Shown here piece by piece: positions 3,884 through 23,423 of a DNA stretch of 47,698 nt; the stretch's first letter is position 1; the number at the start of each line of letters is the position of its first letter. Origin of the DNA: Halobacteriales archaeon SW_8_68_21 (lineage in GTDB: Archaea; Halobacteriota; Halobacteria; Halobacteriales; Haloferacaceae). The stretch spans positions 49,851 through 97,548 of the forward strand of contig PXST01000025.1 of the NCBI GenBank assembly GCA_003023405.1. Direction: 5' to 3'. The position numbers and the translations under genes were made by a program. Under the pieces are notes generated by a model, which searched no databases, was not told where the DNA came from, and was given only the letters and a program-made list of their open reading frames with translations.

Positions 3884-4920
3884 CGGGGCCGGAGTCGGAG
3901 TTCGGCGTCGTCGTCCGCGAGGCCCGCCCCGCCGACGCCGACGCGGTCGCGGCGTTCACGCGGGACACGTGGGGCGAGCGCCACGAAGACTACGTCCCGC
4001 GGGCGTTCCCGGACTGGGCCGCGTCGGACGACCCGGACCGCGGGACCTTTGTCGCGACGCTGCCGCCCGAGTCCGTCGAGGCCGGCGACCCGGACGGGCG
4101 GGCGGCGGGCGACACCCTCGTCGAGGGCGACGGGACGGGTGTCGCCGACGCGGGCAACCCGGAGGCGGTCGTCGGCTGTATCCAGGCCGTCTCGCTCTCC
4201 GAGTGGGAGGCGTGGGGACAGGGGATCCGCGTCGACCCCGCCGCGCGCGGCCACGGCGTCGGCACCGCGCTCTCGACGGCCGCGCTCGACTGGAGCCGCG
4301 ACCGCGGCGCGACCGTCTGCCGCAACATGGTGTTCTCCTGGAACGTCATGGGACTCGGGCAGTCGCGGGCGGTCGGCTTCGAGCCGGAGACCGAGTTCCG
4401 CTTCGCCGAGCCGGAGCCGGACGCGGCCGGCTCGGACGGAGCTGACTTTCCCGGGGTCGACGTCCTCGCCGACCCCGACGCCGCGTGGGCGTTCTGGAGC
4501 GACAGCGACGCCCGCGACCACCTACGCGGGCTGGCGCTCGACCCCGGCGAGTCGTGGGCCTGCTCGGCGCTCACGCGCGAGCGGCTGGCGACCGCGGCCG
4601 CCGAGGACAGACTGCTCGGCGTCGCCGACGCGGACGGGTTCGCCGGCTTCGCGGTTCGGACGCGCGTGACGGGACGCGAGACCGACGATGGGACCGTTCG
4701 GACCGCGACGTACGGCGCGGCCGCGTGGCGCGACGCCGACGCGGCGGGGGCGCTGTACGACGCGGTCGCCGCCGACGCCGGGGCGGCCGCGGCCGACGCC
4801 ACCCGCGTGTTTATTCCCGAGACGGTCGAGCACGTGAGCGACACCGGCGCGAACCGCGTCCCGGTCGCGGCCGAACCGGACTTCGTGATGTGCGCCGACC
4901 TCACCGGCGGTGAGCCATGA
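3880..4920 (+). CDS. GNAT-family N-acetyltransferase (346 aa)
   Basis: A GNAT acetyltransferase. The N-terminal half carries the acetyl-CoA pyrophosphate-binding loop RGHGVGTAL (about residues 123-131) preceded by the beta strand GIRVDP, and then the typical NMVFSWNVMGLGQSRAVGF segment. The length is about twice that of a single GNAT domain, and the C-terminal half (about 180-346) looks like a second, degenerate GNAT-like module without a clear loop. The acceptor substrate cannot be told. The ATG at 3880 overlaps the gatD stop (ATGA), and its own stop overlaps the next ATG in the same way, so the three genes are probably cotranscribed and translationally coupled. Confidence 0.85.
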   Translation: MTGPESEFGVVVREARPADADAVAAFTRDTWGERHEDYVPRAFPDWAASDDPDRGTFVATLPPESVEAGDPDGRAAGDTLVEGDGTGVADAGNPEAVVGCIQAVSLSEWEAWGQGIRVDPAARGHGVGTALSTAALDWSRDRGATVCRNMVFSWNVMGLGQSRAVGFEPETEFRFAEPEPDAAGSDGADFPGVDVLADPDAAWAFWSDSDARDHLRGLALDPGESWACSALTRERLATAAAEDRLLGVADADGFAGFAVRTRVTGRETDDGTVRTATYGAAAWRDADAAGALYDAVAADAGAAAADATRVFIPETVEHVSDTGANRVPVAAEPDFVMCADLTGGEP

Positions 4921-5129
4921 CCCTCTTCGGCGTCTCCCTCCCGTGGTCGCTCCCGCTCACGTTCGTGATCTACGGCGTCGTCGTCGCCGTCGCGGTGTGG
5001 ATCTACCGCGACGCGAGGGCGCGCGGCAGCCGCTACGCGATCGTTTGGGGGCTCTCGACGCTCCTCTTTACTATCATTCCGGTGCTGGCGTACCTGTACC
5101 TCCACCGCGACACCGGGCCGGCGCGCTGA
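4917..5129 (+). CDS. Small two-helix membrane protein, function unknown
   Basis: A 70-residue protein with a hydrophobic segment at about residues 10-30 (PLTFVIYGVVVAVAVWIY), a short basic cytoplasmic-type loop RDARARGSRY, and a second segment at about 42-62. This is the layout of a helical hairpin with both ends on the same side. No family is recognised, although small proteins of this kind are common in haloarchaea. It is translationally coupled to the acetyltransferase through an ATGA overlap at 4917-4920 and closes the gatD operon. Confidence 0.75.
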   Translation: MTLFGVSLPWSLPLTFVIYGVVVAVAVWIYRDARARGSRYAIVWGLSTLLFTIIPVLAYLYLHRDTGPAR

Positions 5130-5432: not shown

Positions 5433-5556
5433 TGCGACCGTTTCGGAAGCCGACCCACAAAGCCTCGGCGGATCGGTGGTCTCGAACCGGACCGGCGGTA
5501 TCGATCCCGATACCCGAACCCGAACGTCTAATTGGGCCGGTGTCCCCCGTGGTGAC

Positions 5557-6612
5557 ATGTTCGCGACGCTGCCGGACCTCCTCCGACTGCTCGTCGTCCC
5601 CGTGTTCGCGTGGGCGGCGCTCCGGGACGTCCGGACCCGACGCCTCCCGAACCGACTGTGGCCGCCGCTGTACCTGTTCGGCGCGCTCCTCCTGATCTGG
5701 GAGGCCGTCACCCTGTGGCCGTTCGCGGGGTTCGACGGCCGGATCTTCCTCGTCCGGGCCGCGGTCAGCCTGCTGTTCGTCGCGCCGCTCGGCTACGCCT
5801 TCTGGTACCTCGGGGCGTTCGGCGGGGCCGACGCCAAGGCGCTGATCGCGCTCGCAGTGATCTTCCCGACCTTCCCGGCCTACGAGGTCGGGACCGTCGT
5901 CTTCCCGCTCGTTGACACCGATCTCGGCGTGTTCTCGCTGACGGTCCTCACGAACACGGTGTTGATCGGGCTCGCCTATCCGGTCGCGCTCGCCGCGCTC
6001 AACCTCGTCCGCGGCGAGGTCTCGTCGAACATGTTCCTCGCGCGCCCGGTTGCGACCGAGTCGCTGCCCGACAGACACGGGCGGCTGTTCGAGGGGCCGG
6101 GCGGGTCGACGCGGGGCGGACTTGACCTCGACGCGCTCCGGATGTACCTCCGCTGGCGCGGCCTCACGCTGGCGAACCTGCGGGCCGACCCGGACGGGCT
6201 CCGCGACCCCGACTCGGTCGGCGAGACGTTCGACCCGACCGACGGCGGGACCCACGTCGGCCCGCGGACCGATGGGGGGCGCGCGGTCGACGACGCGGCC
6301 CCGGACGAGGGACGCGCAGTCGACGACGCGGCCCCGGACGGGGAAACCGCGGTCGACGAAACGGTCACGGACGACGAGACGGCCACGGCCGACCCCTGGG
6401 CCGCCGAGCGCTTCCTCGACGACATCGACCACGGCGCGTACGGCACCGACGCCGCGACGCTTCGCGACGGGCTGGAGGTCGTCGCCGACGCGGACCGCGT
6501 GCTTGTCTCGCCCGGCATGCCGTTCGTCGTCCCGATGGCGGCCGGCCTCGTCGTCTCGCTGACGTACGGCGACGCGCTGTTCGCGCTGCTCGGCGCGGTC
6601 GGACTCGTCTGA
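5557..6612 (+). CDS. pibD: Prepilin/prearchaellin peptidase (A24 family, PibD-like)
   Basis: An aspartic membrane peptidase that removes the class III signal peptides of archaellins and pilins at the membrane. It has 351 residues. The first catalytic aspartate is in ALRDVRTRRLPN (D24) and the second in the GxGD-like motif GAFGGADAKAL (D92), each next to transmembrane segments. Four to six hydrophobic helices occupy about residues 8-160, and another lies at the C-terminus (LFALLGAVGLV). Between them is a long hydrophilic acidic loop of about 150 residues, as in other haloarchaeal PibD proteins. This loop contains a 33-base tandem duplication at 6280-6312/6313-6345 encoding RAVDDAAPD twice. The ATG at 5557 opens directly into the first helix. 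Confidence 0.88.
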   Translation: MFATLPDLLRLLVVPVFAWAALRDVRTRRLPNRLWPPLYLFGALLLIWEAVTLWPFAGFDGRIFLVRAAVSLLFVAPLGYAFWYLGAFGGADAKALIALAVIFPTFPAYEVGTVVFPLVDTDLGVFSLTVLTNTVLIGLAYPVALAALNLVRGEVSSNMFLARPVATESLPDRHGRLFEGPGGSTRGGLDLDALRMYLRWRGLTLANLRADPDGLRDPDSVGETFDPTDGGTHVGPRTDGGRAVDDAAPDEGRAVDDAAPDGETAVDETVTDDETATADPWAAERFLDDIDHGAYGTDAATLRDGLEVVADADRVLVSPGMPFVVPMAAGLVVSLTYGDALFALLGAVGLV

Positions 6613-10268: not shown

Positions 10269-10429
10269 GGTGACCACCGCCGGAGCCCCGAGCCGCTCGG
10301 TCGCACTGCGTCAGTTCTTTCTCGTCAGCGATCGACACGAACCCCTCCGAAGCTCCAGCCCCGACTCCCTGGCGCGGGCGGTTCGCGGCCCCGTGGACCG
10401 CTCACCGGCACGCGCCACCGCACCGATCG
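10269..10429 (-). repeat. Dispersed structured element, copy E
   Basis: This minus-strand copy fills much of the 295-base gap between the symporter and the next gene. Its 5' block (GGTGCGGTGGCGCGTGCC) lies at about 10407-10426. The following hairpin has arms 10395-10401 and 10385-10391 and is closed by one G-U pair on the minus strand. The 3' block GGCTGGAGCTTCGGAGG is near 10346-10362 and begins a 66-base unit that aligns with the 63-base tandem unit at 1197-1259. A second diverged unit start (CGGGGCTCCGGCGG) lies at about 10275-10288. No TATA-like sequence is evident upstream. Confidence 0.7.
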
Positions 10430-10510
10430 AACGGAAACACCGCCATCGAACCGTTCCCATCGCGCCGAACCCGCCGAAAGGCAAAAGCCGGCCTATCTCC
10501 GACTAACGGT

Positions 10511-11918: not shown

Positions 11919-11989
11919 CTGCGACCGCACCACCGAGGTCGACCGCGCTCAGTCGCCGTCGGCCGTCTCCGCGCCGGCTCCGCCCTCAC

Positions 11990-13372
11990 CTACAGGAAGT
12001 ACCCGCCGAGTCCGACGAAGCCGACGACGTTCGAGGCCGCGACCGCCCAGAAGACGGCCTCGACGCCCCACCCCAGCCCCGGCGTCACGGTGACGCCGAA
12101 CGCGCCGAACGTCGTCGCGACCGGGACGGCCGCGACCGCGATCGGGAACCGGACCGCCCAGTACTTTATCAGGTCGGCGACGAACGCCGTCCGGGTCCTG
12201 GACGCGCCGTTGAACCCAGCCAGCAGGGTGTACGTCCCGCCGAGCGCCCAGTAGGAGGCCCCGAGGATCCGGAGGTACGCCACCGCGAGGTCGCGGCCGG
12301 TCGCCGTGAGGTCGGGGGCGAGGAGGTCGGCGATTCCCCCGGCGAACAGGAACTGGACGGTACCGAGCGCGAGGAACCCGGTGACGACCATGCCGGTGCC
12401 GACGGTTGTCGTCCGGCGGGCGCGTCGGGGGGCGTCCGCGCCGAGGCTCTGCCCGACCATCGACTGGGCCGCCTGTTGTATCCCGAGCGCCGGGACGATC
12501 GCGAGCGTCGCGACCCGCGCGCCGACCGTGTACGCCGCGACGCCCGCCGCGCCGCCGGCGATCGCGACCAGCCCGACGACGAACACCCTGACTACCTCGC
12601 TCACGCCGCGCTGTCCGCCCAGCGGGGCCCCCACGGCGACCACCTCGCGGACGAGTCCCGGGTCGAACCTGAACGCCTCGCGGGTGAGTCGGAAGGTGTC
12701 GCGGCCGATCCCGGCCGCGTACCCGAGGATCCACAGGAGCCCGGCGACGCCCGCGAGGACGGTGCCGATCGCGGCCCCGGCGACGCCGAGTTCCGGGGCG
12801 GGACCGACCCCGAAGATGAGGACCGGCGCGGCGACGAGGTTGACGAGGACGCTGACGAGACTCACGTGGAACACCGCGCGGGTGTCCCCGTACGCCGTAA
12901 AGCAGTTCTCGACGGTGTCGCCGACGGCCCCGACCGGGAGGACGGCGATCACGATCGCGAGGTACGTCGCCGTCGTGCCGGCGAGCGCGGGGTCGGCCCC
13001 GAGCAGCGCCACCGTCTCTTCGGCGTACACGACCACCGGAAGCGCGACCGCCGCCGTGACCCCGAACGCGACGAGCGCGCCGTTGACCGCGACGCGGCGC
13101 GCACCCGTCGCGTCGTCGCCGCCAGCGCGCTGCGAGACGAGGATCTGCGTGCCGACCGCGCCGATCACGACCGTCGCGCCGAGCAGCGACTGTACCGGGA
13201 GGCTGAGACCGACCGCGGCGACCGCGTCCTCGCCGACCCGCCCGAGCCAGAAGGTGTCGATTAGCGCGTTCGCGACGTACACGACGTTCTGCGCGACGAG
13301 CGGCGCGGCGAGAACGAGGAGCACGCGCCCGACCGGGCCGTCGGTGATCGCCTCCTGATTGACCTCCAACAT
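11990..13372 (-). CDS. MATE-family multidrug/metabolite efflux transporter
   Basis: A 460-residue cation-coupled exporter of the MATE family in the cytoplasmic membrane. It shows two homologous six-helix halves. The first opens with GPVGRVLLVLAAPLVAQNVVYVANALIDTFWLG, the typical helix 1/2 region (P in LAAPLVAQN, D in IDTFW). The second begins near residue 245 with VVAVGAPLGGQRGVSEV and includes MVGQSLGA. Substrate unknown. The ATG at 13372 is favoured by an AT-rich TATA-like stretch (about 13397-13409) 25-35 bases upstream, behind which lies a 16-bp palindrome. The downstream neighbour converges from the plus strand. Confidence 0.92.
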   Translation of the reverse strand: MLEVNQEAITDGPVGRVLLVLAAPLVAQNVVYVANALIDTFWLGRVGEDAVAAVGLSLPVQSLLGATVVIGAVGTQILVSQRAGGDDATGARRVAVNGALVAFGVTAAVALPVVVYAEETVALLGADPALAGTTATYLAIVIAVLPVGAVGDTVENCFTAYGDTRAVFHVSLVSVLVNLVAAPVLIFGVGPAPELGVAGAAIGTVLAGVAGLLWILGYAAGIGRDTFRLTREAFRFDPGLVREVVAVGAPLGGQRGVSEVVRVFVVGLVAIAGGAAGVAAYTVGARVATLAIVPALGIQQAAQSMVGQSLGADAPRRARRTTTVGTGMVVTGFLALGTVQFLFAGGIADLLAPDLTATGRDLAVAYLRILGASYWALGGTYTLLAGFNGASRTRTAFVADLIKYWAVRFPIAVAAVPVATTFGAFGVTVTPGLGWGVEAVFWAVAASNVVGFVGLGGYFL

Positions 13373-13632: not shown

Positions 13633-14997
13633 ATGAGCAACGGCGACGACGACCCGGCAGACGCCTCCGAGGGGGCCGACGCCGCGGACGACGGCGGGGA
13701 CGCCGGCGAGTCGACGGAGACGGCCGCCCCGACGCTCCCCGAGGACCCGACCGAGGAGTCCCTGACCGAGTACCTCGACGAGATCGCGGACCGCCTCGAC
13801 GACGCCGAGACGGAAGCGGACCTCGACGATGTCAACGCCCTGCTGGACGACGCGGAGACCGGCATCGAGGAGGCGGACCTCCCCGAGCCGGACGGGGACG
13901 ACGAGGACGACCCGCGCGGCGACCTCGAAGCCCGCGTCGCGGAGATCCGTGACGGCGTCGAGGACGCACGCGGCCCATACGGCGAGGATGTCGTCGAGGC
14001 GATCGAGACCGCCGCCGGGACGGTCGAGGACACCGAGTGGACCGAGGACGGCCACGACGACGTCGCGGCCGCGGTCGCATCGTTCGTCGACGCGGCCGCC
14101 GAGACGGTCGACGCCGACGCCGGTCCCGACGGCGACGGGATCGCGGACCTCGTGGCCGCGCTCGACGCCGTCGCCGAGGCGGTCGCCGACGCACACCTCG
14201 ACGCGGACGCGGACGCCGACGGCATCGCCGCGCTGCTCGACGCGATCGACGAGCTGGCGGCCGAACTCGACGACGCCGAGGAGTGGGACGACCTCGAGAC
14301 CCACGAACAGCTCCGCGCACGGGGGTACTACGACGTGCTGGGCCACTACAAGGACTTCCCGGTCGAGTGGGCCGCGCTGAAGGAACACGAGGCGCAGGGC
14401 AACGTCGACATGATCCTGCTCGCGCTCGACTCGCTGGGGTCCGAGTTCATGGAGCGCCACTGTCTGGAGGCGTTCGAGCGGATGGGCAAGCGTGGGAAGA
14501 CCGAGGCGTCCGTCGAGGAGGTCCTCGGCCGCGTCGAGAAGCGCGACCGCCCCGCGATCCGGATCCTCGGCAAGATGGCGGCCGCGGAGGCGACCGACAC
14601 CCTCGTCGAGTACGTCGACGAGGACTCGAACCCGCAGCTCCAGAAGGCCGCGTTCAAGTCGCTCGGCGAGGTCGGCGCGGCGGAGGCGGTCCAGCCGCTC
14701 GCGAACCAGCTCGACCCCGACGGCGACACCGAGGACCTGGTCCGCCCGCACGCCGCCCGTGCGCTCGGACTGATCGGTGACGCCCGCGCCGTTGACCCGC
14801 TGGCCGACGCGCTCGAAACCGACCCGTCCGACGATGTCCGCGCGGCAGCCGGCTGGGCGCTCCGCCAGATCGGCACCCGCGAGGCGCTCGAAGTGGCGGC
14901 CGAGTACGCCGACGAACACTCCTTTGTCGTCTCGACCGAGGGCGAGAAGGCGCGTGACGCGCTCGACGACGAGGCGGAACCCGCGGCGACGGCCTGA
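13633..14997 (+). CDS. HEAT-repeat protein with acidic helical N-terminus
   Basis: A 454-residue protein. Residues 1-220 are extremely acidic and alanine-rich with predicted helices (LTEYLDEIADRLDDAETEADL and similar). From about 250 onward there are PBS-lyase/HEAT-type repeats, for example RPAIRILGKMAAAEATDTLVEYVDED, then QLQKAAFKSLGEVGAAEAVQPLANQL, RPHAARALGLIGDARAVDPLADAL and VRAAAGWALRQIGTREALE. Such repeats form a curved helical scaffold for protein contacts. The start at 13633 (MSNGDDDP) is preferred over 13606 because a TATA-like CTCTTAAT at about 13598 would give a transcript start near 13624. Partner and function are unknown; a second HEAT protein lies in the chemotaxis cluster. Confidence 0.85.
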   Translation: MSNGDDDPADASEGADAADDGGDAGESTETAAPTLPEDPTEESLTEYLDEIADRLDDAETEADLDDVNALLDDAETGIEEADLPEPDGDDEDDPRGDLEARVAEIRDGVEDARGPYGEDVVEAIETAAGTVEDTEWTEDGHDDVAAAVASFVDAAAETVDADAGPDGDGIADLVAALDAVAEAVADAHLDADADADGIAALLDAIDELAAELDDAEEWDDLETHEQLRARGYYDVLGHYKDFPVEWAALKEHEAQGNVDMILLALDSLGSEFMERHCLEAFERMGKRGKTEASVEEVLGRVEKRDRPAIRILGKMAAAEATDTLVEYVDEDSNPQLQKAAFKSLGEVGAAEAVQPLANQLDPDGDTEDLVRPHAARALGLIGDARAVDPLADALETDPSDDVRAAAGWALRQIGTREALEVAAEYADEHSFVVSTEGEKARDALDDEAEPAATA

Positions 14998-22307: not shown

Positions 22308-22361
22308 GCGATTGCGCTCGACGGAACTCTTTTGAGCCGGAGTGGCGTATTCAAAGCCAGT

Positions 22362-22898
22362 ATGGGACTGGGCTCGGACATGTATCGGCAGCAGATCCTC
22401 GACCACTACAAGAACCCGCGCAACTACGGGGAACTCGAGGACCCGGACTTCACGCACGTCGGCGAGAACCCCTCCTGTGGCGACACGATCCGGATAGACA
22501 TCCAGCTCGACGACGCCGGGGAGGCCGTCGAGGCGGTGCGGTTCACCGGCGACGGCTGTGCCATCTCGATGGCCTCCGCGAGTATGCTCTCCGAGCGGCT
22601 CCACGGGATGGCCGTCGACGAACTGGACGCACTCGACACCGACGACGTCACCGAGATGCTCGGCGTCGACATCTCCCCGATGCGCGTGAAGTGTGCGGTG
22701 CTCGGGCGGCAGGGCGCACAGGACGGCGCGGCAGCCGGGGACGAGGCCGGCGACTCGCCGTTCTCGGGCGCGCCTGAATCGGCCGGCACCCCGGCGTCGG
22801 TCGTCCCGGCGTCGGCGTTGACCGTCCCCGCGTCGGCACTGGTCGTCCCGACGAACAGAAACGCGAACACACCCAGCGGATGTCGGAACTCCTCCTGA
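22362..22898 (+). CDS. sufU: SufU/NifU-like Fe-S scaffold, native C-terminus replaced by inverted-repeat sequence
   Basis: An iron-sulfur cluster scaffold or sulfur-transfer protein of the SUF system. Family features are MYRQQILDHYKNPRNYGEL and the three conserved cysteines: C39 in NPSCGDT, C66 in GDGCAIS and C111 in MRVKCAVLG. The natural protein should end some 10-20 residues after CAVLG...AQDGA. Here, from 22750 (residue about 130), the frame runs into an exact reverse complement of 23117-23216. It encodes a meaningless tail (SPFSGAPESAGTPASVVP...) up to a stop at 22896-22898. The functional core is intact, so activity may survive. The start is at 22362 (MGLGSDMYRQQ). Confidence 0.85.
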   Translation: MGLGSDMYRQQILDHYKNPRNYGELEDPDFTHVGENPSCGDTIRIDIQLDDAGEAVEAVRFTGDGCAISMASASMLSERLHGMAVDELDALDTDDVTEMLGVDISPMRVKCAVLGRQGAQDGAAAGDEAGDSPFSGAPESAGTPASVVPASALTVPASALVVPTNRNANTPSGCRNSS

Positions 22899-23216
22899 AG
22901 GGCGCGACGATGACGAACCGCCACTGCGACGACTGCGGCGATCCCGTCTTCCGCCACGACGGCCGCGAGTTCTGTCCCACCTGCGGGAACGAGGTCGGCG
23001 GAGCCGCCGGCGCGAACGCGGACGAGGCCTTGCCCGCCGCCGCCTCCGGCTCCCCGGCCGCTGACTCTCCGGTCACCGCGAACGCGACCTCGGAAGGGGG
23101 AGCCGACGCCGACGCGGGGACGACCAGTGCCGACGCGGGGACGGTCAACGCCGACGCCGGGACGACCGACGCCGGGGTGCCGGCCGATTCAGGCGCGCCC
23201 GAGAACGGCGAGTCGC
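22750..23216. repeat. Perfect 100-bp inverted repeat with 267-bp centre
   Basis: The left arm 22750-22849 is the exact reverse complement of the right arm 23117-23216. The right arm is the native orientation: it encodes, in frame, the linker of the zinc-ribbon protein with three 21-base repeats (ADAGTTS, ADAGTVN, ADAGTTD). The left arm therefore is the copied or inverted one. It replaces the end of sufU and the beginning of the zinc-ribbon gene, whose frame resumes at 22850 without a start codon. A foldback duplication, an inversion by-product or an assembly artefact would all give this. Confidence 0.9.
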
Positions 23217-23423
23217 TCCGCGCCTCGACAGGCCGAGCCTTCCCGGTCTGCGTCTTCCCGCTCGGCCGCCGACGCGGAGGGCATCGACGCCGCTCGCGCG
23301 TCGCTGACGCGCACGCTGACCCGGTTCGCTCGTGCCGCCGAGGACACCGACGACCCGCGGCGCGCCCGCGACCACCTCGAAACGGCCCGCGAAGCGGCCG
23401 AGGCGCTGGCGGCGCTGGACTGA
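22850..23423 (+). pseudogene. Sjogren's/scleroderma autoantigen p27-like zinc-ribbon gene, broken at both ends of the inverted repeat
   Basis: The frame from 22850 reads DEQKREHTQRMSELLLKGAT and then a zinc ribbon (CDDCGDP, CPTCGNE), the hallmark of the archaeal autoantigen-p27 (SSSCA1-like) family. The N-terminal helix and start codon are missing because the inverted-repeat arm ends at 22849. The frame continues through the repetitive acidic linker to about 23216. The native C-terminal helix (DAEGIDAARASLTRTLTRF to EALAALD, stop at 23421-23423) then lies in the +1-shifted frame, so a frameshift falls between about 23200 and 23280. An internal ATG at 22880 could still make the zinc ribbon. 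Function unknown. Confidence 0.8.

Follow-up and report, generated by a model that had tools for sequence, protein, structure and literature searches.

A 100-bp inverted repeat at the junction of sufU and a zinc-ribbon gene in a draft Halorubrum-type genome is very probably a local assembly error

The window considered here (G000:C25:49851-97548) is a 47.7-kb stretch of a draft Halorubrum-type genome of 2,438,325 bp, in 55 contigs with many N gaps and ~80% complete; the nearest named relatives found belong to Halorubrum. Its ends, positions 1 and 47698, coincide with the limits of one N-free piece of contig C25, which is bounded by gaps of 64 and 28 Ns. Near its middle the adjoining ends of sufU and a zinc-ribbon gene appear disrupted by a pair of inverted sequence copies. 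The locus was mapped by self-comparison and by alignment of the window to relatives' stretches, among them L036 and L097, and contains the following features, with the three false joins (J1 to J3) listed as probable ones:

22353-22730, forward strand: native part of sufU (Pfam NifU_N, NCBIfam SufU), collinear with relatives to 22728-22730
22721-22730, no strand: probable false join J1, with a 10-base microhomology, GGACGGCGCG, common to sufU and the reversed zinc-ribbon gene (comparison with relatives; both L036 alignments overlap here)
22731-22849, reverse strand: misplaced inverted copy of the zinc-ribbon gene interior (22721-22836 matches L036 3991-3876 on the opposite strand)
22750-22849, reverse strand: left arm of the exact 100-bp inverted repeat (self-comparison)
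22849-22850, no strand: probable false join J2, with 1 base in common (comparison with relatives)
22850-23216, forward strand: native 5' and middle part of the zinc-ribbon gene (Pfam Auto_anti-p27), including the right arm, collinear with relatives
23117-23216, forward strand: right arm, in its native place (self-comparison; collinear with relatives)
23216-23217, no strand: probable false join J3, with ~95-100 bp of the relatives' sequence missing and ~4 bases in common (L036 and L097 alignments)
23217-23423, forward strand: native 3' part of the zinc-ribbon gene, in a different frame (open reading frame (ORF) 23127-23423; 91% match to L097 2605-2815)

A preliminary description of this DNA had reported an exact 100-bp inverted repeat at the junction, and self-comparison bears this out: 22750-22849 is the exact reverse complement of 23117-23216, with a spacer of 267 bp. 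Chance is ruled out by the exactness of the match over 100 bp, since the second longest such repeat in the window measures just 27 bp, with arms 13 kb apart. The arm sequence has no further occurrence in the genome. The misplaced piece is somewhat larger than the arm, reaching 22731, or 22721 if the common 10-mer is counted, so that the inverted copy continues 19-29 bp past the arm into native sequence that is absent at the right-hand copy. What stops the right arm at 23216 is the lack of ~95-100 bp of native sequence at that point.

The native arrangement is evident from other genomes. In the close relatives examined, sufU ends ..CAVLGRQVAQDGAKIHRGELDPDEDRTVTEE*, a short intergenic stretch follows, and the zinc-ribbon gene begins MSDGFDKEAEREKLREKYADDEQKREHTQRMSELLLKGATM.., with both genes intact; ~199 bp comprising the sufU end, the intergenic DNA, and the zinc-ribbon start are found where the window has 22731-22849. 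A strong sufU match, stopping at or just short of window position 22730, is present in 50 of the 51 other genomes of the genus, G013 having the sole weak one. The comparison with close relatives suggested in the preliminary description has thus turned up an intact sufU/zinc-ribbon junction, and none of the ~90 relatives' loci scanned carries a comparable inverted repeat, which rules out a stable feature of the lineage. (Self-matches of ~240-258 bp in L031 and L071 are most likely N runs, and were excluded from later analyses.) The same alignments uphold the earlier view that it is the left arm that is out of place, the right arm being native coding sequence, with relatives collinear to 22728-22730 and again from 22849/22850. 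On the forward strand, 22849-23216 matches L036 3568-3962 and the match resumes at 23233 (L036 4077), while the L097 alignment jumps from 2503 to 2605 across J3.

Relative to these genomes, sufU in the window retains its three conserved cysteines and lacks its final ~18 codons, and the zinc-ribbon gene lacks its first ~20. Its reading frame changes just beyond the right arm, because of the ~95-100 bp missing at 23216/23217. The losses of the sufU C-terminus and the zinc-ribbon start, and the frameshift, had all been proposed previously and are all found in the assembly, although they probably do not hold for the organism. A few bases before J1, within 22700-22720, the conserved valine codon of the SufU motif GRQVAQDG reads as glycine (GRQGAQDG); this could be a genuine variant or one more local error.

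A short stretch between two inverted arms has the general form of an invertible segment or a small mobile element with inverted ends, which is the extent of the resemblance. The arms are ordinary zinc-ribbon coding sequence, found in no relative's locus and nowhere else in the genome, and the spacer is the zinc-ribbon gene's own 5' part in native orientation, in which no recombinase or transposase was found. With neither conserved arms nor a recombinase, this candidate was rejected, and its probability is considered negligible.

The order of the pieces also fits a real and very recent replication template switch. In that case the nascent strand would have jumped out of sufU at J1, taken the opposite strand of the zinc-ribbon gene as its template, and switched back at J2. 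The resulting four-point order, 1-4-3-2, has been described for template switching, with a single inverted repeat as its product (PMC7954356), and it can be drawn directly on the L036 alignment. As in the short-range template-switch mutations of that report, local sequence has given way to an inverted copy from close by, leaving one inverted repeat, and J1 offers microhomology. A single event of this kind is not sufficient, however, since the third join, J3, would have to be supplied by a linked or separate small deletion, and this extra deletion falls exactly at the end of the arm.

Joins of this type also arise in the test tube. In multiple displacement amplification (MDA) or library polymerase chain reaction, a 3' end may be re-primed on the opposite strand, giving a chimeric molecule that is then assembled faithfully; MDA chimeras with inverted joins and an intervening deletion have been described (PMC1855051). 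The locus resembles them in its inverted join, its intervening deletion, and the short complementarity at J1, where the 10 nt fall within the 2-21 nt given for such chimeras. At J2 the homology is just 1 nt, and three joins within 500 bp would be needed.

A biological repeat should have a length unrelated to the assembly, and the distribution of repeat lengths was therefore used as the deciding test. Maximal exact repeats of at least 60 bp were counted in stretches totalling 1.56 Mb of the same assembly (~64% of the genome). They peak sharply at 99 bp, with 13 pairs, plus two pairs each at 98 and 100 bp; no other repeat length has more than five. The eight longest repeats with copies within 3 kb of each other measure 100, 100, and six times 99 bp. 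Several repeats in the spike start at base 1 of a contig or finish on its last base. Among the eight longest of these close-set repeats, direct 99-mers flank an N gap in L106 and inverted ones do so in L121 (X-N21-X', X being the repeated word), a 99-mer starts at a gap edge in L128, and in L101 and L172 the 99-mers start at contig base 1. No pile-up at 99-100 bp was found in a comparison sample of 800 kb from four relatives (G045, G042, G022, and G015), taken from chromosome-sized contigs. A technical origin of the inverted repeat is strongly supported, because its arms are as long as the assembly's characteristic 99-100 bp word, and repeats of that length turn up elsewhere in the draft at unconnected positions, in many cases right beside an N gap or a contig end.

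Two other loci in the assembly show the same anatomy in direct orientation. The repeats at L182:533-1317 and L110:10346-11160 are direct, of 99 and 100 bp, with no N between the copies. In L182, X at 533-631 is followed directly by a 67-bp deletion versus a relative; beyond this a block leads to a second X at 1219-1317, which extends ~13 bp beyond X and stands for 147 bp of native sequence. In L110, X at 10346-10445 is likewise followed directly by a 34-bp deletion and a block, and the second X replaces 162 bp of native sequence. The repeat in the window follows this scheme in inverted form, and the genes at the L182 and L110 repeats are probably mis-assembled too.

None of this is anticipated by a template switch. 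Such an event gives no reason to expect an arm as long as the 99-100 bp word found across the assembly, direct copies with this length and like anatomy elsewhere in the draft (L182, L110), or 99-mers where gaps and contigs end. That the arm length follows the spike, besides the need for J3, makes this explanation very unlikely. What it would require is a haloarchaeal microhomology-guided switch that copied ~120 bp of the neighboring gene in reverse and gave SufU a new tail, with a 100-bp arm matching the assembly word by coincidence, a combination to which we give hardly any credence. An amplification or library chimera is rated slightly lower still; a fixed 99-100 bp length with direct copies and an association with N gaps and contig ends is not expected of that process either. 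Chimeric reads may still have helped to mislead the assembler.

We therefore regard the inverted repeat as in all probability a local assembly error, and not a real feature of the organism, on the strength of the sequence comparisons above. The preliminary description had left a choice between a very recent event and a technical chimera; the technical side of this stands, given the arm length and the positions of like repeats at gaps and contig ends, and the very recent event is not supported.

The error could have come about as follows. Native sequence of the relatives is lacking at both places flanking 22850-23216, ~200 bp at the gene junction (e) and ~95-100 bp inside the zinc-ribbon gene (d). 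The true order in the organism would be sufU - e - B - X - d - C, where X is a 99-base node, B the native sequence between e and X, and C that beyond d. Short reads would have left two adjacent coverage gaps, e and d, in this GC-rich and repetitive coding sequence, and a de Bruijn assembler whose largest k was ~100 would have closed both by using node X twice: once in place, giving B-X-C with d skipped, and once reversed, giving sufU - start of d reversed - X reversed - B with e skipped. A largest k near 100 would lead to repeats of 99 bp, or of 100 bp when one extra base matches by chance. The expected outcome is three false joins and one 100-bp inverted repeat, made up of 99 node bases and one chance base. 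Both the spliced sufU and the zinc-ribbon ORF with its frameshift would then arise from the false joins, with no cellular mechanism required.

Some points weigh against this explanation. No N gap was found inside the repeat, and a join like J2 within an N-free piece requires that the assembler either merged blindly or was misled by a small number of chimeric reads. The assembler and its k are themselves deduced.

Comparable behavior has been described, at least in part. Contig ends sharing sequence of length maxK or maxK-1 are presented as a known trait of de Bruijn assemblers in a passage of PMC10914622, and a passage of PMC7111523 deals with local assembly errors and with sequence duplicated on either side of inserted Ns, IDBA-UD coming under particular suspicion. 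The draft genome resembles the errors and end words treated in these passages (for IDBA-UD, metaSPAdes, and MEGAHIT) in having one fixed length of exact repeat, found at contig ends and flanking N gaps, and in its falsely closed gaps and missing native sequence. It differs in that the passages treat end overlaps and duplicates around Ns generally; no description of an extra node copy, direct or inverted, filling a second nearby gap was found in them.

Other repeats in the assembly are of several kinds. A second inverted pair of 99 bp, around a 21-N gap, is located on the same contig ~33 kb past the first (L121:8684-8902, in G000:C25). There, ~257 bp of native sequence have been swapped for the 21 Ns and most of the 99-bp inverted copy; the gene cut at this position we take, from reading its sequence, to encode a sugar-phosphate isomerase/AP-endonuclease-type protein. 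On one contig, L167 has a 59-bp inverted pair (4882-4940 and 5500-5558) and a 73-bp direct pair (399-471 and 762-834), near N gaps; these may reflect assembly errors of the same type at a shorter length. L111 has a set of shorter exact direct repeats at 11929-12427 and 13896-14394, with a constant offset of 1967 bp; these look like a diverged tandem duplication, unlike the 99-bp artefact.

More broadly, a spike of exact repeats at a single length (here 99 bp) in a draft genome is a warning sign of false joins, which may be inverted as well as direct and can occur even where no N gap is visible. Since a one-length spike of this kind marks false joins, gene calls next to such repeats deserve distrust. 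For the lineage considered here, recognizing the inverted repeat as a probable assembly error keeps a fresh rearrangement, and the breakage of sufU and the zinc-ribbon gene, from being reported in error.
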